A stretch of DNA of 64,000 nt. Source: Candidatus Flavonifractor intestinigallinarum. GTDB taxonomy: Bacteria; Bacillota; Clostridia; Oscillospirales; Oscillospiraceae. The stretch covers positions 1 to 64,000 of the forward strand of contig DWXO01000047.1 in NCBI GenBank assembly GCA_019119165.1, given 5' to 3'. The notes below the pieces were generated by a model that was not told the origin of the DNA, ran no database searches, and was given only the letters and a program-made list of their open reading frames with translations. Of the stretch, positions 34,052 through 51,810 are shown one piece after another (position 1 is the stretch's first letter; every line of letters starts with the position of its first letter). A program made the translations under genes and the position numbers.

Positions 34052-35281
34052 TTACAGTCCTCCGGCCACCGCCCAGCCGATTAGGGTCAGCACGGCGGTA
34101 AAGGCCACCGACATCAGCAGCAGGGACCATCCGAAGGGCACGGGACCCTGGGGGGCAGGCGGCTCGGAGGTGAGCCGCAGGCCGGGACAGGCCTTGGGAA
34201 TATGGATCTTTTTTTGTCCGTTTCCCGCCCTGTAGCTGCCGTGGTACTGGAGGCGGTCCTCACCGGTGATGTGCAGATCGGTCAGGGGCACCACCGCCCG
34301 GCTGAGCAGGCTGCCCGGCAGGATGGTGCCGCTGCTTATGTCCCGGATGGCCCGCTGGATGGACGCCCGGGCCACCTCCTGGCTTTCCGGGGTAAGCCGG
34401 TCCCACACGATGGCCCGCATGGTGCGTACAAAGCGGTAGGGCTCCATGGCGTTGAGGGCCTGGATATCCACCTGCCACAGGGTCCCCCCTCCGTCCCGGG
34501 CCAGCACCTTCCGCACGGCAAAGCGGAAGGGGGTCAGAGCCTGAAAGCTCAGGATCAGAAGGAGTATCATGGCGGCAAAGCTGCCCAAAGCCGCCCCCAC
34601 CCAGGCCATGGAGAAGGTCTGCTGCATGGGCATCAGGGCAATGCACAGCATGACCACAATGGGCAGCAGCATGGCGGGAAGAGCGGCCAGCTGGAGGGGG
34701 CGCAGCCATTTGCTCTGGGGGATGTACAGCTCCACAGCGCCCTCCCGGAAATCCTGGGCCTGGTCGCCGCTGGGCAGCACCGGGTTTGCGCCGGAGCTGC
34801 GGAAGGAGACAATGACGGTGGGAATGGCCCCCAGCAGCGTAAAGCCATAGAGCATAAACAGATTGCCCCAGTAGGCCTTGGCATCCAGAACATCCATCTC
34901 CAGGAAGAAGGAGATGGTACGGAAGGACTGGAAGATGTCCAGACCGATCTCCTGGGAGATGGTGATGGCGCAGCTGAGCTGATGGGCAAAGTAGGTCATG
35001 CCTAAAATAATGAGGCAGGCGATGATACAGCCCTTTTTGCTCAGGCGGCCTCCCAGCAGCTCATAGCCCTTTATGGCGCACACCGCCATAACCAGGCCGG
35101 ACAGGGAGACCACATAGCCCAGCTGCCCCACCAGCACCACACACACCACGCCCAGCAGGGACCCCAAAAAGGCGCCTACTGCCCCTGCGATGATATTTTC
35201 CCGCTTCTCACTGGAGCGGGACGCTTCCTTGACCACAGACCATCTCTCCTTTGCCCGCATGATTTGGGTTTGAGTCGCCAT
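34052..35281 (-). CDS. Multi-pass membrane protein, unknown function
   Basis: 409 aa, several hydrophobic helices. Confidence 0.75.
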   Translation of the reverse strand: MATQTQIMRAKERWSVVKEASRSSEKRENIIAGAVGAFLGSLLGVVCVVLVGQLGYVVSLSGLVMAVCAIKGYELLGGRLSKKGCIIACLIILGMTYFAHQLSCAITISQEIGLDIFQSFRTISFFLEMDVLDAKAYWGNLFMLYGFTLLGAIPTVIVSFRSSGANPVLPSGDQAQDFREGAVELYIPQSKWLRPLQLAALPAMLLPIVVMLCIALMPMQQTFSMAWVGAALGSFAAMILLLILSFQALTPFRFAVRKVLARDGGGTLWQVDIQALNAMEPYRFVRTMRAIVWDRLTPESQEVARASIQRAIRDISSGTILPGSLLSRAVVPLTDLHITGEDRLQYHGSYRAGNGQKKIHIPKACPGLRLTSEPPAPQGPVPFGWSLLLMSVAFTAVLTLIGWAVAGGL

Positions 35282-35345
35282 TATACCATGGATGGGAGGA
35301 GAGTGTCAATTTGTCCCGGAGCAAAGCGCGGGCGGACGCCCAGAT

Positions 35346-35428
35346 CCCGCCCGCAAAGAAAATTGTGCCTGTTATGTGCGGCAAGAGCCAAGGATCAGCA
35401 AAAAGCGCGCCGAAAGGCGCGCTTTTTG
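35346..35428 (+). pseudogene. Relic of the 3' end of a nitroreductase gene plus its terminator
   Basis: PARKENCACYVRQE vs PARKENYIYYVR* at 32262..32300; terminator 35400..35428 identical to 32316..32343. Confidence 0.75.
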
Positions 35429-35440
35429 TGTTGGGAAGAA

Positions 35441-36796
35441 TTATTCCCGTTCCCGATTGGTATGGATCAAGCCGTATTTTTTAAGTTTGTATTGCAGGGT
35501 CCGCCTGGAGATACCCAGAGCGGCGGCGGTTTTCTCCCGGTGTCCGCCGTACTTTTCCAGGGCGTTAATAATGGACATCATTTCCTGTTCCGACAGGGAC
35601 AGCTCCGGCGTGTTGGGGGATAGTCTCTGCTGATTGGCAAAGCACCGGTTCGTCACATAGGTGGGAATGTCGTGGAGCCTGATGTAGGGACCTTCCGCCA
35701 TGGCCACCGCGCACTCCACCGCGTTTTCCAGCTCCCGCACATTTCCCGGCCACTCGTACTGGTGGAGTACGGACACCGTTTCATCGTCAAACCCCTTGAT
35801 ATTCTTTCCGTTGAGTTCCGCGTGGGTATGCAGAAAGCCCAGGGCCAGCTCGTCCACATCGCTCAGCCGTTCCCGCAGGGGAGGAATGTGAATCCGAATG
35901 ATATTCAGGCGGTAGTAGAGATCCTCGCGGAACTTTCCCTCCCGGACCTGGTCCTCCAGGTGCTCATTGGTGGCGGCAATGATCCTTGCCTTGACGGGCA
36001 GCTGAGCAACGCCGCCCACCCGGGAAAACTGCCGCTCCTGCAGGACCACCAGCAGGCGGGATTGCAGGTTGAGAGAAAGGGTGCCGATTTCGTCCAGAAA
36101 AAGAGTTCCCTCTCCGGCCAGTTCAAACTTGCCTTTCTGTTGGGTAACGGCCCCGGTAAACGCGCCTTTTTCATGGCCAAACAGGATGCTTTCAATTAGG
36201 GTGGGCTGGATAGACCCGCAGTCCACATGAACAAAGGGTTCCTTGGCCCGGTTGCTGGCAAAATGGATGGCTTTGGCCACAACGCCCTTTCCGGTGCCGC
36301 TTTCGCCGGTAATGAGTACATTTGATTTGAGGTTTTTTATTTTTTCAATGGTGTTGCGAATTTCGTTGACTTGAGGCGAGGACCCCCAGAAGGCTGGGGT
36401 TTGGTCGTCTCCCCCACGCTTGTGGAGGAACTGATGGGAGGGAAGCAGCCGGTTGATTTTGACAAGCAACTGACTGACGTCAAAGGGTTTTGTAATGTAA
36501 TCGCTGGCGCCCAGCTGCATGGCCTTTACCGCGCTTTCAATGCTGCCGTACGCGGTCATCATAATGGTGACCGGCTTTTTGCGGACGGTTTTGAGATGAT
36601 CCAATACCTGAAAGCCATCACACCCGGGCATCTGGATATCCAGGAGCAGCACGTCAAAGTTCTGTTCATCCAGAAATTGTTTGGTTTGCTTGCCGTTGTT
36701 GCTGACGGAGACCAGAAAACCCACCTGCTCCAGCTCGTGGCGCAGAATATGACAAATTCCCTGCTCGTCATCCGATATCAAGACTCGCGTGTTCAT
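35441..36796 (-). CDS. NtrC-family sigma54-dependent response regulator
   Basis: Receiver domain, GESGTGKG, GHEKGAFTGA, Fis-type HTH. Confidence 0.95.
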   Translation of the reverse strand: MNTRVLISDDEQGICHILRHELEQVGFLVSVSNNGKQTKQFLDEQNFDVLLLDIQMPGCDGFQVLDHLKTVRKKPVTIMMTAYGSIESAVKAMQLGASDYITKPFDVSQLLVKINRLLPSHQFLHKRGGDDQTPAFWGSSPQVNEIRNTIEKIKNLKSNVLITGESGTGKGVVAKAIHFASNRAKEPFVHVDCGSIQPTLIESILFGHEKGAFTGAVTQQKGKFELAGEGTLFLDEIGTLSLNLQSRLLVVLQERQFSRVGGVAQLPVKARIIAATNEHLEDQVREGKFREDLYYRLNIIRIHIPPLRERLSDVDELALGFLHTHAELNGKNIKGFDDETVSVLHQYEWPGNVRELENAVECAVAMAEGPYIRLHDIPTYVTNRCFANQQRLSPNTPELSLSEQEMMSIINALEKYGGHREKTAAALGISRRTLQYKLKKYGLIHTNRERE

Positions 36797-36811
36797 TTGG
36801 CTCGCTCCTTT

Positions 36812-38275
36812 TTATCTGCCTTCAGCCTGCTTTGAAACCGGCAAACGGATCAAGCATACCGTTTTTTGATCTTTGGAAGAAATGGAAATTTGCCCGCCAT
36901 ATTTTTCAAGGGTCTGCTTCACAATAAAAAGCCCCAGGCCGGTACCGGTGCGTTTGGTCGTCACATAGGGGTTAAAGATCTTGTCCCCCAGTTCCGCGGG
37001 AATACCGCTGCCGGTGTCGGTAATGGCCACCTCAATCATTTGCTGCTGGGGGTCATAGCAGCTTTTTACATGAATCTCGCCGCTTTGCTGGATGGCCTGC
37101 ATGGCGTTAAGCAGGACATTGAGGAAAATTTGCTGGATGTGAATGCTGTTGGCCCGAATTTTGGGGGTTGTCTGATCCAGATCCACATCGATTTTGACCA
37201 GCCGGTCAAATTTTTGCCGTTCTGTCATGGTGACACAGGCAGAGATGGCGGCGTTGAGATCAATGTCGCTTACCTGGCTGCCTTCAATCCGCCCGTAGGA
37301 GAGCATTTGATCCACCACCGCGTCGATGCGGCTGGCGGAATACTGAATGATCCGCATGGATTCCATGCGGGTCTGTTCGGTGCAGGTGTTGGAAAGGGCA
37401 ATTTTGGAACATCCCATAATGTTCATGAGGGGATTTTTGATGTCGTGGGCCAGTCCCGCGGCAATATCGCCCAGCACACCGAATTGTCGCAGCTGTTCCA
37501 GTTCCAGCTCCATCATTTTCTGCCGGGTGACATCCTGCACCACCATGACGGCGCCGCTGATCTGCTCCTTGCTGTTTTTCAGCGGGGAGATCACGAAGTG
37601 AAAGATTTTCTGTTTGGTCTCATGATAGATGGTAAGATTATTTCCTGTGGCGCAGTTTTTTCCCTCTGCCAGATCGATTATGGTTTGGGCGATCTGGGTG
37701 GAGGCCGCGTCGTCAAAGAAAGAGAAGAAATTACGGCCCACATACTCCGTGGGGAGGTCGAACATATCAATGGCATACTGGTTGGAGAGCAACAGACTTC
37801 CGTCGGTCTGAAGGGCCAATACAGCGGAACTGATGCTGTTAAAGACCGCCCCGATCAACTCCTGGTTCTGAATGACCTCGTTGTTGAGCCTGGTGATCTC
37901 CAGATTGACCTTGGAATAGCTTTTCAGCCAAATGATGTCCTTCTCTTCAAAGGGGCCGTCTTTTCTGCAATAAATATTGTAGCAGGCATATTTATCCGTC
38001 TCACGAAAGCGGATCACAAGAATATAGATGCCCCGATAGAACACATTCTCCATCGACTCACCGTCACTGAGCCGGTGTTTGTTGTTTTCCAAAAATTCCT
38101 GGGGGATCTGGCCGTCCACCCCGTTCAGGTCCTCCCAGGCGTCCAGATAGATGGCTCCGCGGAAGGAAATCGTGGCAATAGCCACCCAGTCGGCTCCAAT
38201 CAAACGGTAAATTCCCCGCTCTTTCAGCTTCAAAATGGTTTCGTTGGCAATACAGGACGGATCAGGAAATAACAT
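36812..38275 (-). CDS. Cytosolic sensor histidine kinase (NtrB-like, PAS domain)
   Basis: GDIAAGLAHDIKNPLMNIMG H-box; no obvious TM helix. Confidence 0.9.
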   Translation of the reverse strand: MLFPDPSCIANETILKLKERGIYRLIGADWVAIATISFRGAIYLDAWEDLNGVDGQIPQEFLENNKHRLSDGESMENVFYRGIYILVIRFRETDKYACYNIYCRKDGPFEEKDIIWLKSYSKVNLEITRLNNEVIQNQELIGAVFNSISSAVLALQTDGSLLLSNQYAIDMFDLPTEYVGRNFFSFFDDAASTQIAQTIIDLAEGKNCATGNNLTIYHETKQKIFHFVISPLKNSKEQISGAVMVVQDVTRQKMMELELEQLRQFGVLGDIAAGLAHDIKNPLMNIMGCSKIALSNTCTEQTRMESMRIIQYSASRIDAVVDQMLSYGRIEGSQVSDIDLNAAISACVTMTERQKFDRLVKIDVDLDQTTPKIRANSIHIQQIFLNVLLNAMQAIQQSGEIHVKSCYDPQQQMIEVAITDTGSGIPAELGDKIFNPYVTTKRTGTGLGLFIVKQTLEKYGGQISISSKDQKTVCLIRLPVSKQAEGR

Positions 38276-38473
38276 AAGATTCACCTCTGAACAGTCAGTT
38301 TTATATGAGAGAAACCTGTTTCAAGCTTTATTTTGTATGGGAACGGGATCATTTTAAGGGGATCGAGAGCCGGTTTTTGAGGTATATGGCTAGTATATCA
38401 GATTTGTTTTCTCTGCACAATCCACACTTTTTTCGAGGGGGAGAAAAAGACGTGTGCAAAAGACAAAAAGAAA

Positions 38474-38534
38474 GATGTGCAATTTGTGCAAATTCTGGTT
38501 TGCTGCACATGGCAAAGTGCAAATTTTTGCACAA
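38474..38534 (+). promoter_or_regulatory. Candidate enhancer (UAS) for the NtrC-type regulator
   Basis: Repeated TTGTGCAAAT / TTTGCTGCACA / GTGCAAATTTTTGCAC inverted repeats. Confidence 0.6.
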
Positions 38535-38631
38535 TATCTAAAGTGTGTTTTTCCGACCTGTAGTTTGATTTTCGACTTGAATCGACTGCCGCACAGGCAC
38601 TAGCCGATTTCTTTTTGAAAAAATCCGGTTT

Positions 38632-38647
38632 TGGCACACCCTTTGCA
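38632..38647 (+). promoter_or_regulatory. Sigma54 (-24/-12) promoter
   Basis: TGGCAC-ACCCT-TTGCA, GG and GC separated by 10 nt. Confidence 0.9.
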
Positions 38648-38778
38648 ATAATACTGGGGCAGCAGAGGCGATTTGTATGCAAGGTACGATCTGATCTGAC
38701 TCAAGAGAGAGAAAAGGAGGGAACCTTGGGCGCGGGAAAAAGAGGTAAGAGCCTTGTGACGGTAACGAAAGGGGTTGA

Positions 38779-40185
38779 ATGACCATTAAAGCGAAGAAAT
38801 TGATCGGCGGCATTTTGGGCGTTGTTTTGGCAGTGGCCATCTCACTGTGTCCCATACCTGAATTTTTAAGTGAAGTGCTGACCCGAAATTCCTTTATTGC
38901 GTTAGGTTGTCTGGTAGGCGCGGTTGTCTGGATGCTGCTGGATGTTTTGCCGGACTACCTGGCCACCACCGCAATGTGCGTGGCCTGGGTGGTAACGGGT
39001 GCGGTTCCGCTTTCCACGGCGTTTATCACCTTCAGCGGTTCCACCTGGTGGCTGCTGTTCGGCGCGCTGTGTATCGGCGTGGCGGCCTCCCAGTCCGGTC
39101 TGCTCAAGCGCATGGCGCTGCAAATGATGAACATTTTCCCGGCAAACTTCCGTGGACAGTCCATTGCCATGGTGATTTCCGGCATTGTGATTTCCCCCCT
39201 GATTCCCAGCACCGCGGCCAAATCCGCCATTGTGGCGCCGCTGGCCCGCAACATCAGCGAATCCATGGGCTATGAGCCCTGCTCCAAGCCCGCCAACGGT
39301 ATGTTCATGTCCTTCTACACCGGCTATGTATCCGCGGGCATGGGCTTCCTCAGCGCATCGTTTATCAGCTACTCCCTGGTGGGACTGATGCCCGAGGGCC
39401 AGGAGATTGGCTGGTTTGACTGGTTCCTGTATTCCCTTCCCTGGCTGGTGGTGGCCATTCTGCTGATGACCATTGCCATTCAGATCATGTACCGGCCCAA
39501 AAACGACCAGCCCGTTTCCAAGGAGTCCATCGTCACCCAGCTGAAAGAGATGGGTCCCATGACGGGCAAGGAGAAGATCACCCTGGCAGTCATGCTGGTT
39601 TGCCTGATCCTGTGGATGCTGGAAAAGACCCTGGGGATTTCTTCCGCCATGGTGGCTGTTGCCGGCGGTCTGGTTCTGATCGGCGCAGGGGTCTTTGGCC
39701 GGCAGGAGTTCCGTTCCAAAATTGCGTGGGACAGCATGATCTTTATCGGTACGTTCCTGTGTATCTCCGACGTCTTTGCCGCCCTGGGCATCAATGACGC
39801 TGTGAAGATTCTGCTGGGCGACTCCCTGGCCCCCCTGATCCAGAATCCCTGGATTCTCATTCCCTCTCTGTGTCTGCTGACCTTTGTGATCCGTTTCGTG
39901 GTTGTGTCCTGGACCGCTTCCGCCGTCCTGATCACCACCATTCTGCTGCCCCTGTGCTCGGTCTACGGCGTGCATCCCTGGATCGTAGCCTTTACCTGCT
40001 ACTGCAGCACCAATACCTGGAACGTGATCTACCAGAATACGCCCTACATTGCGGCTCTTGTTGCCACAGACAATAAGCTGGGTACCCACAACCAGCTGCT
40101 GCCCTTCTCCGTGGTATATATGATTACCTCCACCATCGGCTGTATGGCCTGTATCCCTCTGTGGATGCTCCTGGGCCTGTGCTGA
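38779..40185 (+). CDS. DASS/SLC13-type anion (dicarboxylate-like) permease
   Basis: SGSTWWLLFGALCIGVAASQSGLLKRMAL; SPLIPSTAAKSAIVAPLARNI. Confidence 0.85.
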   Translation: MTIKAKKLIGGILGVVLAVAISLCPIPEFLSEVLTRNSFIALGCLVGAVVWMLLDVLPDYLATTAMCVAWVVTGAVPLSTAFITFSGSTWWLLFGALCIGVAASQSGLLKRMALQMMNIFPANFRGQSIAMVISGIVISPLIPSTAAKSAIVAPLARNISESMGYEPCSKPANGMFMSFYTGYVSAGMGFLSASFISYSLVGLMPEGQEIGWFDWFLYSLPWLVVAILLMTIAIQIMYRPKNDQPVSKESIVTQLKEMGPMTGKEKITLAVMLVCLILWMLEKTLGISSAMVAVAGGLVLIGAGVFGRQEFRSKIAWDSMIFIGTFLCISDVFAALGINDAVKILLGDSLAPLIQNPWILIPSLCLLTFVIRFVVVSWTASAVLITTILLPLCSVYGVHPWIVAFTCYCSTNTWNVIYQNTPYIAALVATDNKLGTHNQLLPFSVVYMITSTIGCMACIPLWMLLGLC

Positions 40186-40241
40186 AAAACGGGAAACTGT
40201 TATCAACTTAAGATCAAACAATTTGTAAGGAGGAACTTGTA

Positions 40242-42002
40242 ATGGCGAAGAATTTCTTGTTTAATCCCAGTACCTATACCGGCGAGGGCCTGGACGCCAA
40301 AACCGTAGAGGTCATGAAGAGCACCATCGCCCGTCTGGAGCATCACGGCCTGCGGGAGATGAAGATGGACGACGTAAACAACCGCTATGCCGAATACTTC
40401 GTCAAGCATGAGAAGGACATCGGCGCCTTCGCCCTGATGCTCACGCCCAAGGGATACGGCAAGGACCCGGAAAACGCCATGTTCGACCTGCGCCGCATCA
40501 CCGAATACAACGAGATGCTCAGCTTCTACAACCTGGCCTGCCGTTACATTTTCCAGGTGTCCATCCTGGGCCTGGGCCCCATCTGGATGAGCGACAACGA
40601 GTATATCAAGAACAAGGCCGCTCAGGACCTGATCGACGGGCGGGTGTTCGGCTTCGGCTGCTCTGAGAAGGAGCACGGCGCCGACCTGTATGCCAACGAG
40701 ATGTGCATCACCGAGCTGCCCGACGGCAAGATGCGTACCGACGGCGAGAAGTATTATATCGGCAACTCCGACCGGGGCCTGATCTCCACCTTCGCCCGGT
40801 TCAAGGACAAGGACGGCAACTGGGGCGACTGGGCCTGGGTGCAGGCCGATCCCAAGGACATCCACTACAACGACAGAAAGCACATCAACGCCTCCTACCT
40901 CCACACCGGCTATGTGGGCGAGTACCTGCTGGTGGACTATCCCACCGATGAAAAGAACCTGATCACCCGTGGCCAGAAGGCCTGGGACGACGCTCTGGCC
41001 ACCGTCAACATCGGCAAGTTCCAGGTGGGCGTCTCCCCCATCGGCGTGGCCACCCACGCGTTCTACGAGTGCCTGCACCACTCCTACAACCGCTGGCTGT
41101 ACGGCCATCGCGTCACTGATATGCCCCACGTCCGCAAGATGTTCGTTGAGGCCTATCTGCGTACCGTCGGTATGCGTCTGTTTGCCTTCCGTGCCATTGA
41201 CTACTTCAAGTCCAGCTCCGCCACCGACCGCCGCTACCTGCTGTTCAACCCCGTCTCCAAGATGAAGGCCGCCCTGGAGGGCGTGACCGCCGTGTATCAG
41301 CTGTTTGACGCCGTGACCGCCCGGGGCTTCGAGTCTGAGACCTATATGGAGCAGGCCACCCGCGACATCCAGTCCTCTCCCCGCCTGGAGGGCACCGCTC
41401 ACGTCAACCTGGCCCTCATCCTCAAGTTCATCGACGGCTACTTCTTCCACCACGAGGACTACCCCGAGCTGCCCAAGCTGGGTCAGAGCGACGACTCCTG
41501 CGTGTTCCATCAGAGCTACGGCAAGATGAGCGACGTGACCTTTGCCGATTACCGCAAGGTGCTCAACGCCTGCCAACTGCCCAACGTGAAGGCCTTTGCC
41601 AAGCAGGTGGAGGCGCTGCGGACCCTCTTCGAGAAGTATCCCATTCCTCCCAAGGAGCGCACCAACCGCCAGAACATGGATTATATGCTCAACCTGGGCC
41701 ATATGTTCACCATGGCGCCCTACGCCCAGCTCATTCTGGAGGCCGCCAAGCTGTACGACATCGAGGACGAGATCATCAACCAGATGTTCAGCTTCTATGT
41801 GACCGATATGGCCACCTACGCCACCAAGCAGCTGTCCAGCCAGGAGAACGGCGAAGGCAGAGACGCCCTGCTGCTGGAGATCATCAACACCAAGCCCGTT
41901 CACGATAAGGCTGAGTATGACCGCATTTGGGACGAGACCATCCTGCCCCTCACCGACGCCTATATCATCAACGACGCCACTCGTTACTCCACCAACTGGT
42001 AA
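40242..42002 (+). CDS. Acyl-CoA dehydrogenase superfamily protein (586 aa)
   Basis: FGFGCSEKEHGADLYANEMCITELPDGKMRTDGEKYYIGNSD acyl-CoA dehydrogenase middle-domain pattern. Confidence 0.8.
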   Translation: MAKNFLFNPSTYTGEGLDAKTVEVMKSTIARLEHHGLREMKMDDVNNRYAEYFVKHEKDIGAFALMLTPKGYGKDPENAMFDLRRITEYNEMLSFYNLACRYIFQVSILGLGPIWMSDNEYIKNKAAQDLIDGRVFGFGCSEKEHGADLYANEMCITELPDGKMRTDGEKYYIGNSDRGLISTFARFKDKDGNWGDWAWVQADPKDIHYNDRKHINASYLHTGYVGEYLLVDYPTDEKNLITRGQKAWDDALATVNIGKFQVGVSPIGVATHAFYECLHHSYNRWLYGHRVTDMPHVRKMFVEAYLRTVGMRLFAFRAIDYFKSSSATDRRYLLFNPVSKMKAALEGVTAVYQLFDAVTARGFESETYMEQATRDIQSSPRLEGTAHVNLALILKFIDGYFFHHEDYPELPKLGQSDDSCVFHQSYGKMSDVTFADYRKVLNACQLPNVKAFAKQVEALRTLFEKYPIPPKERTNRQNMDYMLNLGHMFTMAPYAQLILEAAKLYDIEDEIINQMFSFYVTDMATYATKQLSSQENGEGRDALLLEIINTKPVHDKAEYDRIWDETILPLTDAYIINDATRYSTNW

Positions 42003-42017
42003 TCACCGGATGCTGAT

Positions 42018-42070
42018 GCGCCTGCCTGCCGGAACCCCTGAGCGTTTTCCTCTGTCCGGCAGGCAGGCGC
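42018..42070. promoter_or_regulatory. 16-bp perfect intercistronic stem-loop
   Basis: GCGCCTGCCTGCCGGA ... TCCGGCAGGCAGGCGC, no T-run. Confidence 0.75.
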
Positions 42071-42125
42071 TCCCATTCCCGGCAAAGCACAAATTTTTAT
42101 CCTAGAACAGACGGGAGACGTTTCT

Positions 42126-42902
42126 ATGGAATTTGAGCATTTTACATTAAATGTAACGGATGATATTGCGGTATTCACGGTGAATCGTCCCCAGGTTCGC
42201 AACGCAATGAACGAGGCCTGCTGGAAGGAGCTCTCCGCCTTTCTGGACTGGGTGGACCAGACCCCTACGTTGAAGGCCGTCATTATAACCGGCGCCGGCG
42301 AAAAGGCCTTTGTGGCCGGCGCGGACATCAACTTCCTGAAGGAGCGCACCATGGTGTCCGCCCTGGAGGTGCTGGCCCAGCGTACCCTCCGCAAGCTGGC
42401 CGCCTGCAAGCTGCCGGTGATCGCCGCGGTCAACGGCTACGCCTTCGGCGGCGGCTGCGAGCTGGCCATGGCCTGCGACATCCGTATTTCCTCGGAAAAG
42501 GCCGCCTATGCCCTGCCGGAGCTGGGGCTGGGCATTCTGCCCGCCGGCGGAGGAACCCAGCGCCTGGCCAAGCTGGTGGGCGTGGGCCGGGCCAAGGAGA
42601 TGATCCTGACCGGGCGCATCGTAAAGGCGGCGGAGGCCCTGGCCATGGGCCTGACCACCAAGGTGGTGGCGCCGGAGGAATTGATGGACGCCGCCTTTGA
42701 GACCGCCCGCTGCATTGCCCAAAAGGGTCCCTTTGCGGTCCGCCTGGCCAAGCAGGCGGTCAACGCGGCCCTGTCCACCGATGAGGATACCGGCATGATG
42801 ATCGAGGCCCTCAGCTATGGCCTGGTCATTGCAAGCGACGACCGCATGGAGGGCGTGACCGCCTTCCTGGAAAAGCGCACCCCTGAATTTTCCGGCCATT
42901 GA
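42126..42902 (+). CDS. Enoyl-CoA hydratase/isomerase (crotonase family) 1
   Basis: GEKAFVAGADINFLKE; NGYAFGGGCELAMACDIRI. Confidence 0.92.
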   Translation: MEFEHFTLNVTDDIAVFTVNRPQVRNAMNEACWKELSAFLDWVDQTPTLKAVIITGAGEKAFVAGADINFLKERTMVSALEVLAQRTLRKLAACKLPVIAAVNGYAFGGGCELAMACDIRISSEKAAYALPELGLGILPAGGGTQRLAKLVGVGRAKEMILTGRIVKAAEALAMGLTTKVVAPEELMDAAFETARCIAQKGPFAVRLAKQAVNAALSTDEDTGMMIEALSYGLVIASDDRMEGVTAFLEKRTPEFSGH

Positions 42903-42980
42903 CCGGACCCAATTACATTGTTACCCCCCAAAAAACCTTTCATTAACGATCCTGCATGAGCAAAGGAAGTGAGGAACATC

Positions 42981-44141
42981 ATGAGAGATGTTGTCATCGT
43001 TGCATACGGCCGCAGCGCGGTTGCCAGAGCCGGAAAAGGTTCCCTGAAAAACACCAATCCCATTGAATACAGCGCCCAGGTGCTGCGGGGCGTACTGGAC
43101 AAAGTGCCCCAGCTGCCCGCGGAAGCCATCGAGGACGTGATCCTGGGCTGCGCCAAGCCGGAGCTGACCCAGCGCTATAACATCGGCCGCCTGGTGGCCC
43201 TTCGGGCCCAGCTGCCCTACAGCGTGCCCGGTCAGACCGTCAACCGGTTCTGTGCCTCCAGCCTTCAGGCCATCTCCACCGGCGCCAATATGATCCGCAG
43301 CGGCGAGGCTGAGGTGATCGTGGCCGGCGGCGTGGAATCCATGACCGACATCCCCTACATGGGGATCGGCAACCCGGAGTTCCGCAACCCGTGGCTGGAC
43401 GAGCATGAGCCCGGCGCCTACATGAGCATGGGCATCACGGCGGAAAACGTGGCCGGGCAGTACGGCATCAGCCGGGTGGAGATGGAGGAATTTGCCGTGG
43501 AAAGCCATCAGAAGGCGGCAAAGGCCCAGAACGCCGGCATTTTGGCGGAGGATATCATTCCTGTGGACGCCGTGGACGACGAGGGCAACAAATTTGTCTT
43601 TGACCAGGACGAGTGCATCCGGCCCAACAGCAGCCTGGAGGCGCTGGCCAAGCTGAAGCCCTGCTTCAAGCCCGACGGCGTGGTTACCGCCGCCATCTCC
43701 TCTCCCACCAACGACGGAGCCTCCATGGTGGTGCTCATGTCGGCGGAAAAGGCCCAGGCTCTGGGCATCCGGCCCCTGGCAAAGTATGTGGGCTATGCCG
43801 TCACCGGCGTGGACCCCTGCTACATGGGCATCGGTCCCATTTCCGCCATTGAAAAGGTCATGAAGCTCACCGGCCATACCGCCGACGAGATGGATGTGAT
43901 CGAGCTCAACGAGGCCTTTGCCTCCCAGGCCATCGCCTGCATCCGCACGCTGAATCTGGATATGGCCAAGGTCAATATCAACGGCGGCGCCATCGCGCTG
44001 GGCCATCCGCTGGGCGCCACCGGCGGCATCCTGGTCAGCAAGGCGCTGTCCCAGCTCCACCGCCAGAATGGCACCTACGCTCTGGTCAGTATGTGCATCG
44101 GCGGCGGTATGGGCGCTGCCGCCATATTTGAGGCCTGCTGA
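42981..44141 (+). CDS. Acetyl-CoA acetyltransferase / thiolase
   Basis: VNRFCASSLQAI active Cys; NINGGAIALGHPLGATGG; MCIGGGMGAAAIFE. Confidence 0.95.
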   Translation: MRDVVIVAYGRSAVARAGKGSLKNTNPIEYSAQVLRGVLDKVPQLPAEAIEDVILGCAKPELTQRYNIGRLVALRAQLPYSVPGQTVNRFCASSLQAISTGANMIRSGEAEVIVAGGVESMTDIPYMGIGNPEFRNPWLDEHEPGAYMSMGITAENVAGQYGISRVEMEEFAVESHQKAAKAQNAGILAEDIIPVDAVDDEGNKFVFDQDECIRPNSSLEALAKLKPCFKPDGVVTAAISSPTNDGASMVVLMSAEKAQALGIRPLAKYVGYAVTGVDPCYMGIGPISAIEKVMKLTGHTADEMDVIELNEAFASQAIACIRTLNLDMAKVNINGGAIALGHPLGATGGILVSKALSQLHRQNGTYALVSMCIGGGMGAAAIFEAC

Positions 44142-44176
44142 GCATCCGTCTGCGAATTGATAAAGGAGAATGTCGA

Positions 44177-45037
44177 ATGGAAAAAATTCATAACGTGTGC
44201 GTCATCGGCGCCGGCGTCATGGGCAGACAGATCGCCTTGAACGGGGCTGTAAGCGGATTTCAGGTGGCGCTGACCGATTCCTTCCCCGCCGCGCTGGAAA
44301 AGGCGGGGGCGTGGGCCAAATCCTACCTGACCACCTCGGTGGAAAAAGGAAAAATGACTCAGGAAGAGATGGAGGCGGCCCTGGGCCGTCTGACGGTAGA
44401 TCAGACGCTGGAGGACGCGCTGAAGCAGGCCGATCTGGTCATCGAGGCCATTATTGAGGAGGAGGAGGCCAAGCGGGAGCTGTTTACCACCGTCAGCAAA
44501 GTGGCCCCCGCCCACGCCATTGTGACCTCCAACTCCAGCTACATCCCCTCCTCCGTGTTTGCCCCCCTCTTTTCCGATCCCGGCCGTCTGGCCAACCTGC
44601 ACTACTTCAATCCCGCCATGCGGATGAAGCTGGTGGAGATCGTCCGGGGAGCGCACACCGCCGATGAGACCATCGAGACTCTGAAGGAGTTTGTGTCCGC
44701 CGTGGGCAAGACCTATATCGTGGTCAACAAGGAGATCGAGGGCTTTGTGGTGAACCGTCTGCTGCGGGCGGTGCAGGACGAGGGCTACTTCCTGCTGGAG
44801 AACGGCATCGCCTCCTTTGAGGATATCGACAAGGGCGCCGAGCTGGGTCTGAATTACCCCATGGGCCCCTTCCGGCTGATGGACCTCACCGGCCTGGATA
44901 TCAACTACTACAACCGCCAGCGGCACTATAAGGAGACGGGCGACGAGGCCGACCGTCCCCCCCGTGCGCTGGAGGAGCGCTTCCTCCGGGGAGACTACGG
45001 CAAAAAGACCGGGAAAGGCTGGTACTCCTATGAGTGA
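44177..45037 (+). CDS. 3-hydroxyacyl-CoA dehydrogenase
   Basis: VCVIGAGVMGRQIALNGA Rossmann; HYFNPAMRMKLVEIVRG. Confidence 0.95.
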   Translation: MEKIHNVCVIGAGVMGRQIALNGAVSGFQVALTDSFPAALEKAGAWAKSYLTTSVEKGKMTQEEMEAALGRLTVDQTLEDALKQADLVIEAIIEEEEAKRELFTTVSKVAPAHAIVTSNSSYIPSSVFAPLFSDPGRLANLHYFNPAMRMKLVEIVRGAHTADETIETLKEFVSAVGKTYIVVNKEIEGFVVNRLLRAVQDEGYFLLENGIASFEDIDKGAELGLNYPMGPFRLMDLTGLDINYYNRQRHYKETGDEADRPPRALEERFLRGDYGKKTGKGWYSYE

Positions 45038-45830
45038 CCCTGTGGGCAATGAATTGCTTCGGGTTAGCCGCAGCGGCGCCATCGCCACCATCACGCTGAA
45101 CCGGCCGGAGGTCAGCAACGCCCTGGCCTCCGAATCCTATGCCGCCGTGGCGGAAGCCCTGGAGGCCTGCGGGAGAGATGCGGATGTTCGCGCCGTGATC
45201 ATTACCGGCGAGGGAAAGCACTTTTCCGCCGGCGGCGATATCCGTAAATTCAAGGGCTATATTGAAAGCGGAACCTTCATTCAGCGGGAAAACGTGATTC
45301 GGGCCGGAAAAATGACCCAGGCGGTCCGCACCTGTCCCAAGCCGGTCATCGCCATGGTCAACGGCGCGGCGGCGGGCGCGGGCTGCGCGCTGGCCCTGTC
45401 CTGTGACTTCCGGATCATGACCCCCAAAAGCAGGCTGGGAATGTCCTTCATCAATATGGGCCTGTCCGGCGATACCGGATGTATGTATTTCCTGGAGCGC
45501 ATGATCGGGGCGGCAAAGGCCTGTGAGCTGATGATGCTGGGCAGCATGGTGGACGGTCAGGAGGCGCTGCGCCTGGGGCTTGCCAGCAAATTGGTGCCGG
45601 AGGAGCAGCTTCAGACGGAGACCCTGGCGCTGGCGGAACAGCTGGCCCGGATGCCCACCCAGGCCATTGCCCGTCAGAAGCGGCTGAGCTATGAGTTTTT
45701 CTACCGTGACCTGGCGCAGTTCAACCTCCGGGAGGCTGACTATATGTATGAGACCTCCCGCACGCCGGATTATAAGGAAGCGGTCTATGCCTTCCTGGAG
45801 AAGCGAAAGCCGGAATTTACAGGACAGTAA
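45030..45830 (+). CDS. Enoyl-CoA hydratase/isomerase (crotonase family) 2
   Basis: GKHFSAGGDIRKFKG; NGAAAGAGCALALSCDFRI; overlaps HADH stop. Confidence 0.92.
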   Translation: MSDPVGNELLRVSRSGAIATITLNRPEVSNALASESYAAVAEALEACGRDADVRAVIITGEGKHFSAGGDIRKFKGYIESGTFIQRENVIRAGKMTQAVRTCPKPVIAMVNGAAAGAGCALALSCDFRIMTPKSRLGMSFINMGLSGDTGCMYFLERMIGAAKACELMMLGSMVDGQEALRLGLASKLVPEEQLQTETLALAEQLARMPTQAIARQKRLSYEFFYRDLAQFNLREADYMYETSRTPDYKEAVYAFLEKRKPEFTGQ

Positions 45831-45842
45831 GGAGGGTGCAAT

Positions 45843-47009
45843 GTGAAACAGATGTTATCTGATATCAAGGTTCTGGATCTGACCACCACGGTGGCAGGAG
45901 CGGGCGCCGCCGCCATGCTGGCCGACTACGGCGCTCTTGTGATCAAGGTGGAGGGTCCTGACGGCGATCCCCTGCGGAAAATGCCGCCTTTTATGGAGGG
46001 CGAAAGCCTGGTCCACTGCTGGTTCAACCGGGGAAAGCAGTCCGTGGTTCTGGATCTGGAGACGGAGCGGGACGCCGCCGTCCTTGGGCAGATGATGAAC
46101 GGAGCCGATGTGGTGGTGGAGGATTTCAGGCCCGGATATCTGGCCCAGAAGGGGCTGGGTTACGATGCGGTCTCAGCCGCCAATCCGGGGCTGATCTACT
46201 GTTCCGTCACCCCCTTTGGTCAGACAGGCCCCTACCGGGATAAAGAGGGAAATGATCTCATGGCCCAGGCCCTCTCCGGCGTCATGGAGATCACCGGCGA
46301 GATGGACGGTCCGCCGGAAAAGCACGGCACCCCGGTGGGCGATTACGCCGCCTCCCAGAGCGCGTACTCCGCCATTGTGGCGGCCCTCTGCCTGCGGCTC
46401 AAAACCGGTGAGGGACAAGCCATCGATGTGTCCACCATGCGCAACCTGATCTGGCTCAACAGCGCTGTGGACCGGATCAATGTCAATGTCTACACCACCA
46501 GAGAGGGCAACCACCATCCCGCCCTGTCCCCCTTCGGCCTGTTCTACGGCAACAACGGTCAGAGCGTCATCATCTGCGGCCTCAACGCCAAGATCTGGAG
46601 CTCTCTGTGCCATATCATCGGCCATCCGGAGTATATCGACGATCCCCGCTACTCCACCGTAAGCCAGCGTACCGCAAACCGCTTTGAAGTGGTGGAAATG
46701 CTGGAGACCTGGCTCAAGACCTTTGACAACATCCAGGACGCCATCAAGCTGCTGGAAGAGGGCAACGTCCCCTCCTGCCAGGTCTATGGCGCCAGGGAGG
46801 TCTTTTCCGATCCCCACTATACCGATCCCCAGGTGGGCTGGCTGGTCCAGGCGCCCACTCCCACCAGCCTGCAGGCCAAGGGAAAGGCCACTTATCTGAC
46901 CCACAGTACCAACGCCAAATTCTCCAAGACACCCGGCAAAATCGGGCGGGCGCCCGACCTTGGCGAACATGACAGCGCTGTCACCGCACAGCTGGGGCTG
47001 AGGGAATGA
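45843..47009 (+). CDS. Class III (CaiB/BaiF) CoA-transferase 1
   Basis: VLDLTTTVAGAGAAAMLADYGALVIKVE; VGDYAASQSAYSA (candidate catalytic Asp). Confidence 0.93.
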   Translation: MKQMLSDIKVLDLTTTVAGAGAAAMLADYGALVIKVEGPDGDPLRKMPPFMEGESLVHCWFNRGKQSVVLDLETERDAAVLGQMMNGADVVVEDFRPGYLAQKGLGYDAVSAANPGLIYCSVTPFGQTGPYRDKEGNDLMAQALSGVMEITGEMDGPPEKHGTPVGDYAASQSAYSAIVAALCLRLKTGEGQAIDVSTMRNLIWLNSAVDRINVNVYTTREGNHHPALSPFGLFYGNNGQSVIICGLNAKIWSSLCHIIGHPEYIDDPRYSTVSQRTANRFEVVEMLETWLKTFDNIQDAIKLLEEGNVPSCQVYGAREVFSDPHYTDPQVGWLVQAPTPTSLQAKGKATYLTHSTNAKFSKTPGKIGRAPDLGEHDSAVTAQLGLRE

Positions 47010-47048
47010 CTGTCATCCCATGACGCGATGTGTAAAGGAGGAAAAACG

Positions 47049-48230
47049 ATGCAAGACCTGCTTTCGGGACTGAGAGTCTTGGACTTCACCACCAACGTGG
47101 CCGGGCCGGTGGCCACCGCCATGCTGGCCGACTACGGCGCTTCCGTGATTAAAGTGGAACGCCCGGTGCGGGGCGACGATAACCGCAGCTTCCCCCCCAT
47201 GATGGACGGCCAGGGCTTTATCCATTTCTGGTGCAACCGGGGAAAACAGTCCATTACCATCGATCTTGGAGATCCGGACGGGAAGCGTATCGTGGAGCAG
47301 CTGGTCCGGGAGTGCGATATCGTGGTGGAGAGCTACCGCCCGGGCATTATGAAAAAGTTCGGCATGGACTATGAGAGCTTTGCCGCCATCAAGCCGGACA
47401 TCATCTATTGCTCCGTGTCCGCCTACGGGCTTGTGGGCCCCTACTCCAAGCGGCCCGGCTACGATCTGATTGCCCAGGCCATGTCCGGTCAGATGGATCT
47501 GAACGGCGAGGCCGACGGCGCGCCCATGAAAAGCGGCATGACCCTGGGCGACTACTGGGCGGGACTGAACGCCTATTCCGCCCTGGTGACCGCCTGGTTC
47601 CACCATATGAGAACCGGCGAGGGGCAGATGATCGACGCCTCCCTGCTGCAGAACCTTCTGTTCAACAACGATACGGTGCTGGACTATAACATCGGCCGGT
47701 ACAAGACCCGCTCCGGAAACGACCACCCCTACCACGCTCCTTACGGTCAGTTCCGGGGACCGGACGGACGTTACCTCATCATTTGCGTGGACCGGGACGA
47801 GGTCTGGGTCCGGATGGCCCGGCTGCTGGGCCATGAGGAGCTGGCGGGACTGACCGAGCAGGAGCGCATTGAGCACCGGCTGGTACACCAGAAGATGATC
47901 GAGGAGTGGCTCGGGGGATTTGAGACCACGGATCAGGCGCTGAAGGCCCTGGAGGAAGCGGCAGTTCCCTCCTGCAAGGTCAGCAACATGAAGGAGGTCA
48001 GCACCGATCCCCATGTGCTGGAGAATGAGTGGCTGACCCGGGTGGACCTGCCGGAGGACATCACCACCCTCCGCTCCTGGCTGACCCGCAACGTCAACGT
48101 CACCTTTTCCAAAACGCCCGGCGTTTCCAAACCCTCTCCCGCGCTGGGCAACTGCAACTACAGCGTACTGGAGCGGCTGGGCATGACGAAGGACGAGATT
48201 GATCAACTGCAGAAGAAGTGGAATCCGTAA
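47049..48230 (+). CDS. Class III (CaiB/BaiF) CoA-transferase 2
   Basis: VLDFTTNVAGPVATAMLADYGASVIKVE; LGDYWAGLNAYSA. Confidence 0.93.
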   Translation: MQDLLSGLRVLDFTTNVAGPVATAMLADYGASVIKVERPVRGDDNRSFPPMMDGQGFIHFWCNRGKQSITIDLGDPDGKRIVEQLVRECDIVVESYRPGIMKKFGMDYESFAAIKPDIIYCSVSAYGLVGPYSKRPGYDLIAQAMSGQMDLNGEADGAPMKSGMTLGDYWAGLNAYSALVTAWFHHMRTGEGQMIDASLLQNLLFNNDTVLDYNIGRYKTRSGNDHPYHAPYGQFRGPDGRYLIICVDRDEVWVRMARLLGHEELAGLTEQERIEHRLVHQKMIEEWLGGFETTDQALKALEEAAVPSCKVSNMKEVSTDPHVLENEWLTRVDLPEDITTLRSWLTRNVNVTFSKTPGVSKPSPALGNCNYSVLERLGMTKDEIDQLQKKWNP

Positions 48231-48278
48231 TTCAAACCGTTGGGTGTCCCAGTCAAGTATACCTGAGGAGGTAATAGT

Positions 48279-49553
48279 ATGCCCCAGCTGGTCATAGCGC
48301 TGATCATTACGGTGCTGGTTATCATCTCTTTTTCCGTACAGGTGATACCCCTGCCTCTGACTGCCATGTTGGGGGCTCTGGCAATGGTGGTTTTTGGCAT
48401 CATTGAACCTGCCGACGCCATCTCAGCTTTCGGTTCTGATACGGTTATGATGGTGGCTGGGGTAATCATCATCGGCAATGCCATTTTTGAGACAGGTCTG
48501 GCAGAAAAGCTGGGCGCTTCCATCCTGAATCTGCCTATCATCGGCGGCAAGGAAAAGCGGCTGCTTCTCATTGTAATGATCATTATTACCGTGTTGTCCG
48601 CCTTTGTCAGCAATACCGCCGCCGTAGCCATGTTCCTGCCCCTGGTGGCCTCCATTGCGCAGAGCTCCAACGGGAAGATCAAAAAGAAGAACTGCTATAT
48701 GGCCATGGGTATTGCGTCGGTGGTAGGCGGTTTCTGTACCCAGTCCGGCTCCACGCCCCAGATGGTGGCGCAGGAGATCCTGCTGGAAACCGATGGCCTG
48801 CGGGGACTGACCTTTTTTGAGCTGACCAAGATCGGCGTCCTCATTGCCATTGTCATGTTCATTTACTTCCTCACGGTTGGCTACAGGCTTCAGGAGCGGT
48901 GCTTCAATTTCCCTGAGGTTCCCAATACCAGCACCACTCAGCAGACAGTTTCGCAAAGCACCTGGAAGCAGGTGGTTTCCGGCCTGATTTTGGTTGGCTG
49001 CGTCATTGGCTTTATTTCGGGCGTCCTTAGCTTCGGCATTATTTCTCTCCTGGGCGCCTGTGCCTGTATTCTCACCGGCTGCATTTCCCAGAAGCGGGTG
49101 TTTGAGACCATGGACTGGTCTACCATCATTGTGCTGGGCGGGTCCATCGGATTTGCCAACGGCATGGAAGAGAGCGGCGCGGTTAACCTGATCGGCGATG
49201 CGCTGGTCAACAGCTTCGGCCAGAATGGCGAAAATGTTCTGTTGGTCTTTGGGATGATCATTCTGCTGACGGCCCTGTTGAGCAATGTGATGTCCAACAC
49301 GGCCACAGTGGCGGTATTGGCCCCTCTGGGCATCAATGTGGCGCTGAAAATGGGCGCTGATCCCATTACCTTTGTGATCGGAATTATTATTGCCAGCAAT
49401 CTGGCCTTTGCGACCCCCATTGGTACGCCGCCCATGACCATGGTGCTGATCGGCGGCTACCGCTTTTCGGATTATGTGAAAGTAGGCGGACTATTTAACA
49501 TCATTGCAGTCGTTGTCACCATATTTGCCGTACCCCTGCTCTATGGATTTTAA
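48279..49553 (+). CDS. SLC13/ArsB-like anion permease
   Basis: SNTAAVAMFLPLVASIAQ; SNVMSNTATVAVLAPLG. Confidence 0.85.
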   Translation: MPQLVIALIITVLVIISFSVQVIPLPLTAMLGALAMVVFGIIEPADAISAFGSDTVMMVAGVIIIGNAIFETGLAEKLGASILNLPIIGGKEKRLLLIVMIIITVLSAFVSNTAAVAMFLPLVASIAQSSNGKIKKKNCYMAMGIASVVGGFCTQSGSTPQMVAQEILLETDGLRGLTFFELTKIGVLIAIVMFIYFLTVGYRLQERCFNFPEVPNTSTTQQTVSQSTWKQVVSGLILVGCVIGFISGVLSFGIISLLGACACILTGCISQKRVFETMDWSTIIVLGGSIGFANGMEESGAVNLIGDALVNSFGQNGENVLLVFGMIILLTALLSNVMSNTATVAVLAPLGINVALKMGADPITFVIGIIIASNLAFATPIGTPPMTMVLIGGYRFSDYVKVGGLFNIIAVVVTIFAVPLLYGF

Positions 49554-49585
49554 GGTGTTACACCCCGGAACGGAAAGGAGAATTT

Positions 49586-50551
49586 ATGATGAAGGCCTCC
49601 GCGCTCTGTGATCTGCTTCATATTCAGTATCCCATCATGCAAGGAGGGATGCAGTGGCTGGCGACCCCGTCTCTGGCCGCGGCAGTCTCCAACGCGGGAG
49701 GGCTTGGCACCATAAACGCCTCTCTTTCCGAAAACCGGCAGGAGCTGATCGCGTTGATTCAGCGGACCCGGCAGCTGACCGACCGTCCCTTTGCCCTCAA
49801 TATCTCAATGCTCCCCCATTTGGCGGCCGGCGACCGCACCGATGAATTTATGGAAGTGGCCATCCAGCAGCAGGTGCCGGTCATTGAGACCTCAGGCAGA
49901 TCGCCGGCGGACTACGTCCCGGCGCTGCATCAGGCCGGGTGCAAGGTGGTCCATAAGGTGGCCTCGGTGAAGCACGCCCTCAAAGCGGAGGCGGCCGGTG
50001 TGGACGCCATCAGTATGATTGGCTTTGAGGCCGGCGGACATCCCGGCATGGACTATGTGGGCACCTTTGTGCTCCTGCCCAGCATCGTGGCAGCGGTCAA
50101 AATTCCGGTTCTGGCCGGCGGCGGCATTTGCGACGGAAAGAGCTATCTGGCCGCCCGGGCCTTGGGGGCCAGCGGCGTGATTATGGGTACCAGATTTTTG
50201 GCCTGTAAAGAGTGTCCGCTGCATGAAAACTTTAAAAACGTAATCCTTCAGGCCACGGAAAAGGACACCTTCCTGGTACAAAAGACCATTAAGAATGCCT
50301 GCCGCGTCTGGAAAAACCAGGCGTGTACCAAGCTCTATGAGCTTGAGGCCCATGGAAATCCCACCTTGCAGGACGTGCTTTACGTTGTCAACGGCCGCCG
50401 GCAGCGGCAGTGCTATGAAAGCGGAGACGTTCAAAGCGGCTCCTTCCCGGTGGGACAGTGCGTGGGACGCATCCACTCCATTCTCTCCGCCAAGGAGATC
50501 ATTGAGGAGATTGTGAGAGACGCGGAAGCACAGCTCAAGGCGCTGCTGTAG
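49586..50551 (+). CDS. Nitronate monooxygenase / FabK-like FMN enzyme
   Basis: YPIMQGGMQWLATPSLAAAVSNAGGLGTI; EAGGHPG; VLAGGGICDG. Confidence 0.9.
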   Translation: MMKASALCDLLHIQYPIMQGGMQWLATPSLAAAVSNAGGLGTINASLSENRQELIALIQRTRQLTDRPFALNISMLPHLAAGDRTDEFMEVAIQQQVPVIETSGRSPADYVPALHQAGCKVVHKVASVKHALKAEAAGVDAISMIGFEAGGHPGMDYVGTFVLLPSIVAAVKIPVLAGGGICDGKSYLAARALGASGVIMGTRFLACKECPLHENFKNVILQATEKDTFLVQKTIKNACRVWKNQACTKLYELEAHGNPTLQDVLYVVNGRRQRQCYESGDVQSGSFPVGQCVGRIHSILSAKEIIEEIVRDAEAQLKALL

Positions 50552-50741
50552 CGTCAAAGCGCCCACAGACACTTCTACGCAATGTCAGGACCCATGTATC
50601 CGTGAGCTGCCGGTATTTTGCGGCCCAGCCTCAGCCTGCCGCCGGCTTGCGTTTTCCTGCAAATCCACCTGGGACAACCTCCCGCCATCGGTTCTGGTTC
50701 CGTAAAGTGTGGCCGCAGAAAGCGGAGATCCAATGGTCTTT

Positions 50742-50792
50742 GCACCTTCCCCCGGGCGCATTGTCATGTGCCCGGGGGAAGGTGCGTTTTGT
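50742..50792 (+). terminator. Terminator/attenuator upstream of FUSC-like gene
   Basis: GCACCTTCCCCCGGGC...GCCCGGGGGAAGGTGC followed by GTTTTGT. Confidence 0.8.
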
Positions 50793-50820
50793 ACCGCCTG
50801 GCGGGAAGGAGGGCAAGCGG

Positions 50821-51810
50821 ATGCTGAAAAAATGGAGACAAAAAAATTCCCGGTTCTTTTTGAAGGACAGGGCGACCCTAACCAAACTGGCCCTGGCCTC
50901 CTATATGGGCTTTTTTCTGGTGTGGGCCTTGGGATTCCAGGCCACGGCCAGCATTAGCATCAGCGCCATCATGACCATTCCTCACGGCTCCACGGCAAGC
51001 AGGACCAGCGCCTACATACGAAAGCGGATGCTGGCGCAGATCATTGGTGTGGCCGTGGCCTATCCCCTGTATCTGTGGTTTCAGTGGGTCCCCTGGCTCC
51101 ATGACTCCCAGCGGCTGGCCCTGCCCATGACCCTGTCCCTTCTCATTACCGCCGCCATAAATCGGAAACTGCGCCTGAAGATTGCGGATATCACCATGCT
51201 GATGCCCGGCTATCTGGTCATCCTCATGACCCCCGGCTATGAGCTCTATCCCCTGATGCGGCCGGTCTATGTGCTGCTGGGGGTATTGATCGGATATGGT
51301 CTGAATGTGGTGCTCTTTGCGCCGGATTACGGTATCCTGGTGGAAAACAGCCTGGAGGAGATACAGGAGCAGCTGTGCCGGCTGATGGAACAGGCACAGC
51401 CCCTCTCCCACGAACAGCGGGCGGAGCTGAACCGGACCAAAACACAATTGGACGCCGCCAAAGGGTACCTGCTTTGCCTGAGGGAGGATAAGAAAAGGTA
51501 TGCTGCCGATGAAACCAGGCTGGCCCAATTTGAGGCCCATTTAGGGGCATGGGAGGCAGGATTTCATATTCTGCGGGCAGATTTGCCGGAGGGGGACTCT
51601 TGTGACTATTACAGCACGGCTCAGGCCCTTTTTCAGCGGCACAAGGCCATCCTAAATGGAGAAAGCGCCGCCCTGGATCAGATGACCTATCCATCCGGGC
51701 AGATGCTCTCTCAGGGGGTTCCCCTGGCCCGGCTGATCTGCTATGGACAGGCGCTGGCGGTTCTTGCCGCTGTGGCGGAAGCCCCGCAGCAGACAAAAAA
51801 TGAAGTATAA
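50821..51810 (+). CDS. FUSC/ArAE-like membrane protein (aromatic acid exporter-like)
   Basis: Hydrophobic N-terminal half ASYMGFFLVWALGFQATASISISAIMTIP and cytoplasmic helical C-terminus. Confidence 0.65.
   Translation: MLKKWRQKNSRFFLKDRATLTKLALASYMGFFLVWALGFQATASISISAIMTIPHGSTASRTSAYIRKRMLAQIIGVAVAYPLYLWFQWVPWLHDSQRLALPMTLSLLITAAINRKLRLKIADITMLMPGYLVILMTPGYELYPLMRPVYVLLGVLIGYGLNVVLFAPDYGILVENSLEEIQEQLCRLMEQAQPLSHEQRAELNRTKTQLDAAKGYLLCLREDKKRYAADETRLAQFEAHLGAWEAGFHILRADLPEGDSCDYYSTAQALFQRHKAILNGESAALDQMTYPSGQMLSQGVPLARLICYGQALAVLAAVAEAPQQTKNEV

Follow-up and report, generated by a model that had tools for sequence, protein, structure and literature searches.

The closest described counterpart of the locus considered here is the AtoSC system of Escherichia coli, in which the verified target of AtoC comprises two inverted 20-bp sites upstream of the sigma54-dependent atoDAEB operon (PMC3118216). 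In strain MG1655 these sites, CTATGCAGAAATTTGCACAG and an imperfect inverse, have the spacing TGCA-N6-TGCA and lie 113.5 bp from the GG of the promoter TGGCACTCCCCTTGCT. Related circuits have been surveyed in Clostridiales where, as far as the main text of that survey goes (Nie et al. 2019, PMC6615313), local pairing of an enhancer-binding protein (EBP) with its target is the norm, with multiple upstream sites ~100-250 bp from a promoter of consensus TTGGCATNNNNNTTGCT and targets that include acid/CoA genes, e.g. crt-gntT-caiB-bcd-etfAB. The same main text describes neither an AtoC-type group nor a TGCA operator, and only ~10% of the EBPs it covers are response regulators. A further parallel is offered by the NtrBC pair, which likewise combines a soluble PAS kinase with a response-regulator bEBP, although the target of the system described below would be carbon-acid catabolism.

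The window, that is, the whole 64-kb stretch of DNA analysed here, belongs to a 2.29 Mb draft genome (G000) that is 85.6% complete. Within it, the divergent intergenic region at 38285-38778 (494 bp) would be the control region of an AtoSC-type switch, through which a cytosolic kinase, a divergently encoded AtoC-like regulator and a sigma54 promoter together control an operon for the beta-oxidation of an organic acid; comparison of sequences leads us to give this reading a probability of roughly 0.86. In such a switch, an internal cue would reach the kinase through its N-terminal domain, its PAS domain or both, and the kinase would phosphorylate the regulator, which would then bind the TGCA-type dyads at 38454-38532, oligomerise and remodel the sigma54-RNA polymerase waiting at TGGCACACCCTTTGCA. 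The ~12-kb operon (38779-50551) would thereby be switched on, its products importing an organic acid, activating it through CoA transfer to the corresponding CoA ester and degrading it by beta-oxidation. In common with E. coli AtoSC, the locus has a TGCA-N6-TGCA operator (minus strand TGCAAAAATTTGCAC, compared with TGCAGAAATTTGCAC in E. coli), a -24/-12 element beginning TGGCAC, a similar operator-promoter distance (108.5 versus 113.5 bp) and target genes for acid transport, CoA-transferase and thiolase. It differs in that AtoS is membrane-bound whereas the window kinase is cytosolic and has another N-terminal domain, in that the regulator genes are divergent from the operon rather than upstream in line, and in the larger size of the operon, with its DASS transporters and family-III CoA-transferases, and the greater number of half-sites. 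The local pairing, multiple upstream sites, promoter consensus and acid/CoA targets of the Clostridiales regulons recur here as well, whereas the regulator falls within their response-regulator minority.

The main enhancer dyad, GTGCAAATTTTTGCAC (38517-38532), resembles an AtoC operator, is centred 108.5 bp upstream of the promoter GG and is the sole TGCA-N6-TGCA occurrence in the window. A second site of TGCA-N5-TGCA spacing, TGTGCAATTTGTGCAAAT (38476-38493), is centred 149 bp upstream, and is accompanied by an outer GTGCAAA half-site on the plus strand (38454-38460), an additional half-site between both dyads (38503-38509, with TGCAC at 38504-38508) and a lone half-site that flanks the cluster towards the regulator (38413-38419, with TGCAC at 38414-38418 and TGCACA from 38414), the last being a possible autoregulation site. 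An earlier note on this DNA had recorded a 16-nt inverted repeat at 38517-38532, which is indeed present, and had placed the repeats 100-160 bp upstream of the promoter; both dyad centres fall within that interval, but the outermost GTGCAA word lies beyond it, at ~175-180 bp from the GG. Between 38454 and 38532 the word GTGCAA/TTGCAC occurs five times (at 38454, 38477, 38486 and 38517 on the plus strand and at 38527 on the minus strand), and a density of five per 100 bp was reached in none of 200 simulated 64-kb sequences of the window's composition and in none of 5000 simulations of the 494-bp intergenic region. The GTGCAAA words at 38454, 38486 and 38517 form direct repeats spaced by 32 and 31 bp, approximately three helical turns, so all three would lie on the same face of the helix. 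At the scale of the genome, the 170 bp that precede the window promoter contain five GTGCAA words where the background is 0.05, and only 0-1 are found upstream of each of the seven other strict promoters, which belong to the other two bEBPs.

The regulator (35441-36796, minus strand) is an AtoC-like response regulator and enhancer-binding protein of the NtrC family, with a receiver, an AAA+ domain and a Fis-type HTH, in which the receiver Asp53, the Walker A motif and the GAFTGA motif are intact. It shares 43% identity with E. coli AtoC, whose recognition helix, SRRALMYKL, is near-identical to its own, SRRTLQYKL. This likeness extends to the DNA; on the minus strand the window dyad, TTGTGCAAAAATTTGCACTT, matches the E. 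coli AtoC site at 15 of 20 positions. A matrix built solely from the verified E. coli sites gives its top score in the 64-kb window, 17.4, at 38515-38534 (the next being 11.8), a score attained in 18 of 20000 simulated intergenic regions and, taken alone, in 30 of 1000 simulated 64-kb sequences. An AtoC-type operator is present upstream of the -24/-12 element at this locus. Downstream of the regulator gene and on the same strand, a 409-aa ORF (34052-35281) has no Pfam or NCBIfam match.

Only one orthologous kinase-regulator pair was found among ~400 sampled family genomes, that of G390 (kinase 39%, regulator 53-54% identity). With the kinase as query, no match was obtained at E 1e-30 in 19 congeners or at E 1e-45 in ~390 class genomes, and a scan of the genome contigs returned only a distant 32% match in the catalytic part. 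The G390 pair lies amid beta-oxidation and CoA-transferase genes and next to three -24/-12 promoters. Its regulator gene diverges from one for a 3-hydroxyacyl-CoA dehydrogenase/enoyl-CoA hydratase; of the two further promoters, one stands ahead of an acetyl-CoA hydrolase/CoA-transferase pair and the other ahead of an amidohydrolase-DcuC block. Each of the three has 2-3 GTGCAA words upstream. The spacing of the G390 dyads varies (N5, N6 and N9), and the AtoC-operator score there, attained in 404 of 1000 simulations, is not significant alone. At its sigma54-contact loop the G390 regulator orthologue (L047, 730-2217) has GAFTNA in place of the usual GAFTGA. A second genome, G1070, has CTGCGCAATTCTCTGCGCAC, an operator of the same type as that of the window, downstream of a gene for an AtoC-like regulator; next come a perfect -24/-12 element and a short-chain fatty acid transporter gene of the AtoE family. 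The sporulation gene spoIVA on the same contig suggests that G1070 belongs to the phylum Bacillota, broadly defined. No AtoC-type operator was seen in several other relatives from the phylum whose recognition helices are related, hence conservation of the operator is only partial.

The proposal of the earlier note, a sigma54 promoter whose upstream repeats serve as enhancer sites of the divergent regulator, is supported by where the -24/-12 sites fall across the genome, by the match to the AtoC operator and by the G390 and G1070 loci, and appears probable. An alternative is that the sigma54 promoter is real and the GTGCAA cluster is bound by some other protein, either another bEBP or a repressor. 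Such a binder would be compatible with dyad spacings that differ within and between loci, and binding by the regulator is itself a prediction from sequence. However, the remaining two bEBPs of the genome have different recognition helices and different upstream words of their own (GTTGC repeats on C50 and CCAGAATATTAGAAT repeats on C40), whilst GTGCAA accompanies the orthologous regulator of G390 as well and is similar to the AtoC operator, which makes this alternative improbable.

The promoter element itself, TGGCACACCCTTTGCA (38632-38647, plus strand), conforms to TGGCAC-N5-TTGCA and has its GG at 38633-38634 and its GC at 38645-38646, separated by N10, exactly as had been claimed from inspection of the sequence; from the -12 spacing, transcription is predicted to start at ~38658. 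It is the only site of its kind within the window, which is unsurprising given that, with one mismatch tolerated, one match is observed against 1.5 expected. The credibility of the promoter rests on its context and genome-wide placement rather than on the bare pattern. Eight sites in the draft genome match the strict pattern TGGCAYNNNNNTTGCW perfectly, all of them on C7, C40 and C50 and no more than ~4.3 kb from one of three genuine bEBP genes. Besides a single rpoN, the genome encodes three complete sigma54-activator domains, which score 215-228 bits; a further three matches, counted apart from the genuine bEBPs, are weak AAA hits (20-34 bits). On C50 (L039, G000:C50:12000-29000), six perfect -24/-12 promoters with GTTGC-type repeats, including two pairs on opposite strands, are grouped around a single PAS-type bEBP gene; among their targets are an HpaB-family protein, BKACE, Fe-ADH, a transporter and a 3-hydroxyacyl-CoA dehydrogenase.

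The pattern count, with about one such site expected per 64 kb when one mismatch is allowed, is also what a chance match would produce, in which case a housekeeping promoter within the 494-bp intergenic region would drive the operon. This is very unlikely, as a scan of 38150-38900 detected no sigma70-like promoter, perfect -24/-12 sites occur in the genome only beside bEBPs, and a near-identical promoter, TGGCACACGGTTTGCA, is found in the cluster of the orthologous G390 regulator. Even less credible is that the inverted repeat is a transcription terminator; a scanner lists a terminator-like stem with a T-rich tail at 38504-38521, but this stem has only 5 pairs, the same words recur as separate repeats, and no plus-strand gene lies upstream of it because kinase and regulator point away. 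Visual inspection suggested a TTGTGC-17-TATACT arrangement for the regulator operon, which is not strong enough to be claimed as a promoter. Downstream of the predicted start, a possible 18-codon leader ORF (38726-38782) has a TTG start behind GGAGG and a stop that overlaps the transporter start as ATGA, an arrangement suggestive of translational coupling.

The kinase (36812-38275, minus strand) is a PAS histidine kinase with an AtoS-like catalytic part. Its start is likely to be the ATG at 38275, behind the ribosome site AGAGGTGA, with which an alternative GTG at 38284 overlaps. The peak 19-residue hydropathy of 1.24, compared with 3.17 for AtoS, indicates no membrane segment; the kinase is accordingly soluble, as had been anticipated, rather than a membrane-anchored sensor of the AtoS type. 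The earlier description of an NtrC/NtrB-like pair holds insofar as a soluble PAS kinase is coupled with a response-regulator bEBP, but by profile score AtoSC is closer than NtrBC. AtoC is the best NCBIfam model for the regulator (443 bits, versus 402 for NtrC) and AtoS the best for the kinase (236 bits, from residue 129 only, versus 117 for NtrB), both below the equivalog cut-offs of 714 and 646 bits, respectively. The pair therefore falls outside AtoSC by profile cut-offs, yet on the features described above it appears to work like AtoSC. The N-terminal ~125 residues of the kinase match no Pfam family at E values up to 10, and single-sequence structure prediction for the protein gave a pLDDT of 32. 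Most likely the kinase responds to an intracellular cue; that this is a CoA ester or an organic acid we infer only, because the N-terminal region fits no Pfam family.

On the plus strand, the operon starts with a DASS/Na_sulph_symp anion transporter gene (38779-40185), followed by genes for a divergent 586-aa acyl-CoA dehydrogenase (40242-42002), an enoyl-CoA hydratase (42126-42902), a thiolase (acetyl-CoA C-acyltransferase; 42969-44141), a 3-hydroxyacyl-CoA dehydrogenase (44177-45037) and a second enoyl-CoA hydratase/isomerase (44964-45830, its true start probably further in, near 45030), which make up a full beta-oxidation set. Two family-III CoA-transferase genes (45843-47009 and 47028-48230), the latter nearest to succinate-glutarate and succinate-HMG CoA-transferases, a CitMHS/DASS-type transporter gene (48279-49553) and an NMO/FabK-like flavoprotein gene (49586-50551), probably the last of the operon, complete the series. 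This content points to an organic acid that would be taken up, activated by CoA transfer and beta-oxidised, perhaps, at a guess, a dicarboxylate. A strong terminator-like hairpin of 20 pairs (50741-50786, plus strand) probably marks the end of the operon; it lies near the start of an ORF at 50602-51810, whose true start is therefore probably further in and which probably does not belong to the operon. The interval that separates the dehydrogenase gene from the hydratase gene (42003-42125) contains a long perfect inverted repeat, CGCCTGCCTGCCGG...CCGGCAGGCAGGCG, which has no T run and may adjust expression within the operon. Nearly all sampled relatives lack the genes of the regulator region. 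GC content over 35001-40000, which contains the regulator genes, is 49-57% compared with ~61% for the window, and a search of ~380 family genomes at 1e-150 gave no match to the acyl-CoA dehydrogenase; this AT-richer composition and the lack of a close dehydrogenase match suggest that the regulator and operon region was acquired horizontally.

The overall mechanism is a textbook one, and the control circuit is well supported and fairly ordinary. A broader and more tentative proposal, against which the odds still lean, is that Pseudomonadota and Bacillota have both retained one ancestral AtoC operator whilst the sensor was exchanged, with a cytosolic kinase that carries an undescribed N-terminal domain now sensing an internal acid or acyl-CoA and controlling an acid-degradation operon that had not been described before and that few even of the close relatives possess. 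A TGTGCA-N6-TGCACA-like operator is a concrete and testable feature for AtoC-like regulators outside E. coli, a rare acid-degradation operon would be tied to a soluble sensor kinase, and regulon prediction in other anaerobic Bacillota would become feasible. At four further AtoC-like regulator loci of the phylum (L059, L073, L076 and L081), some of them with the helix NRRSLYAKM, the -24/-12-like sites are preceded by TGGGCA..TGCCCA repeats, which apparently represent a second class of operator.
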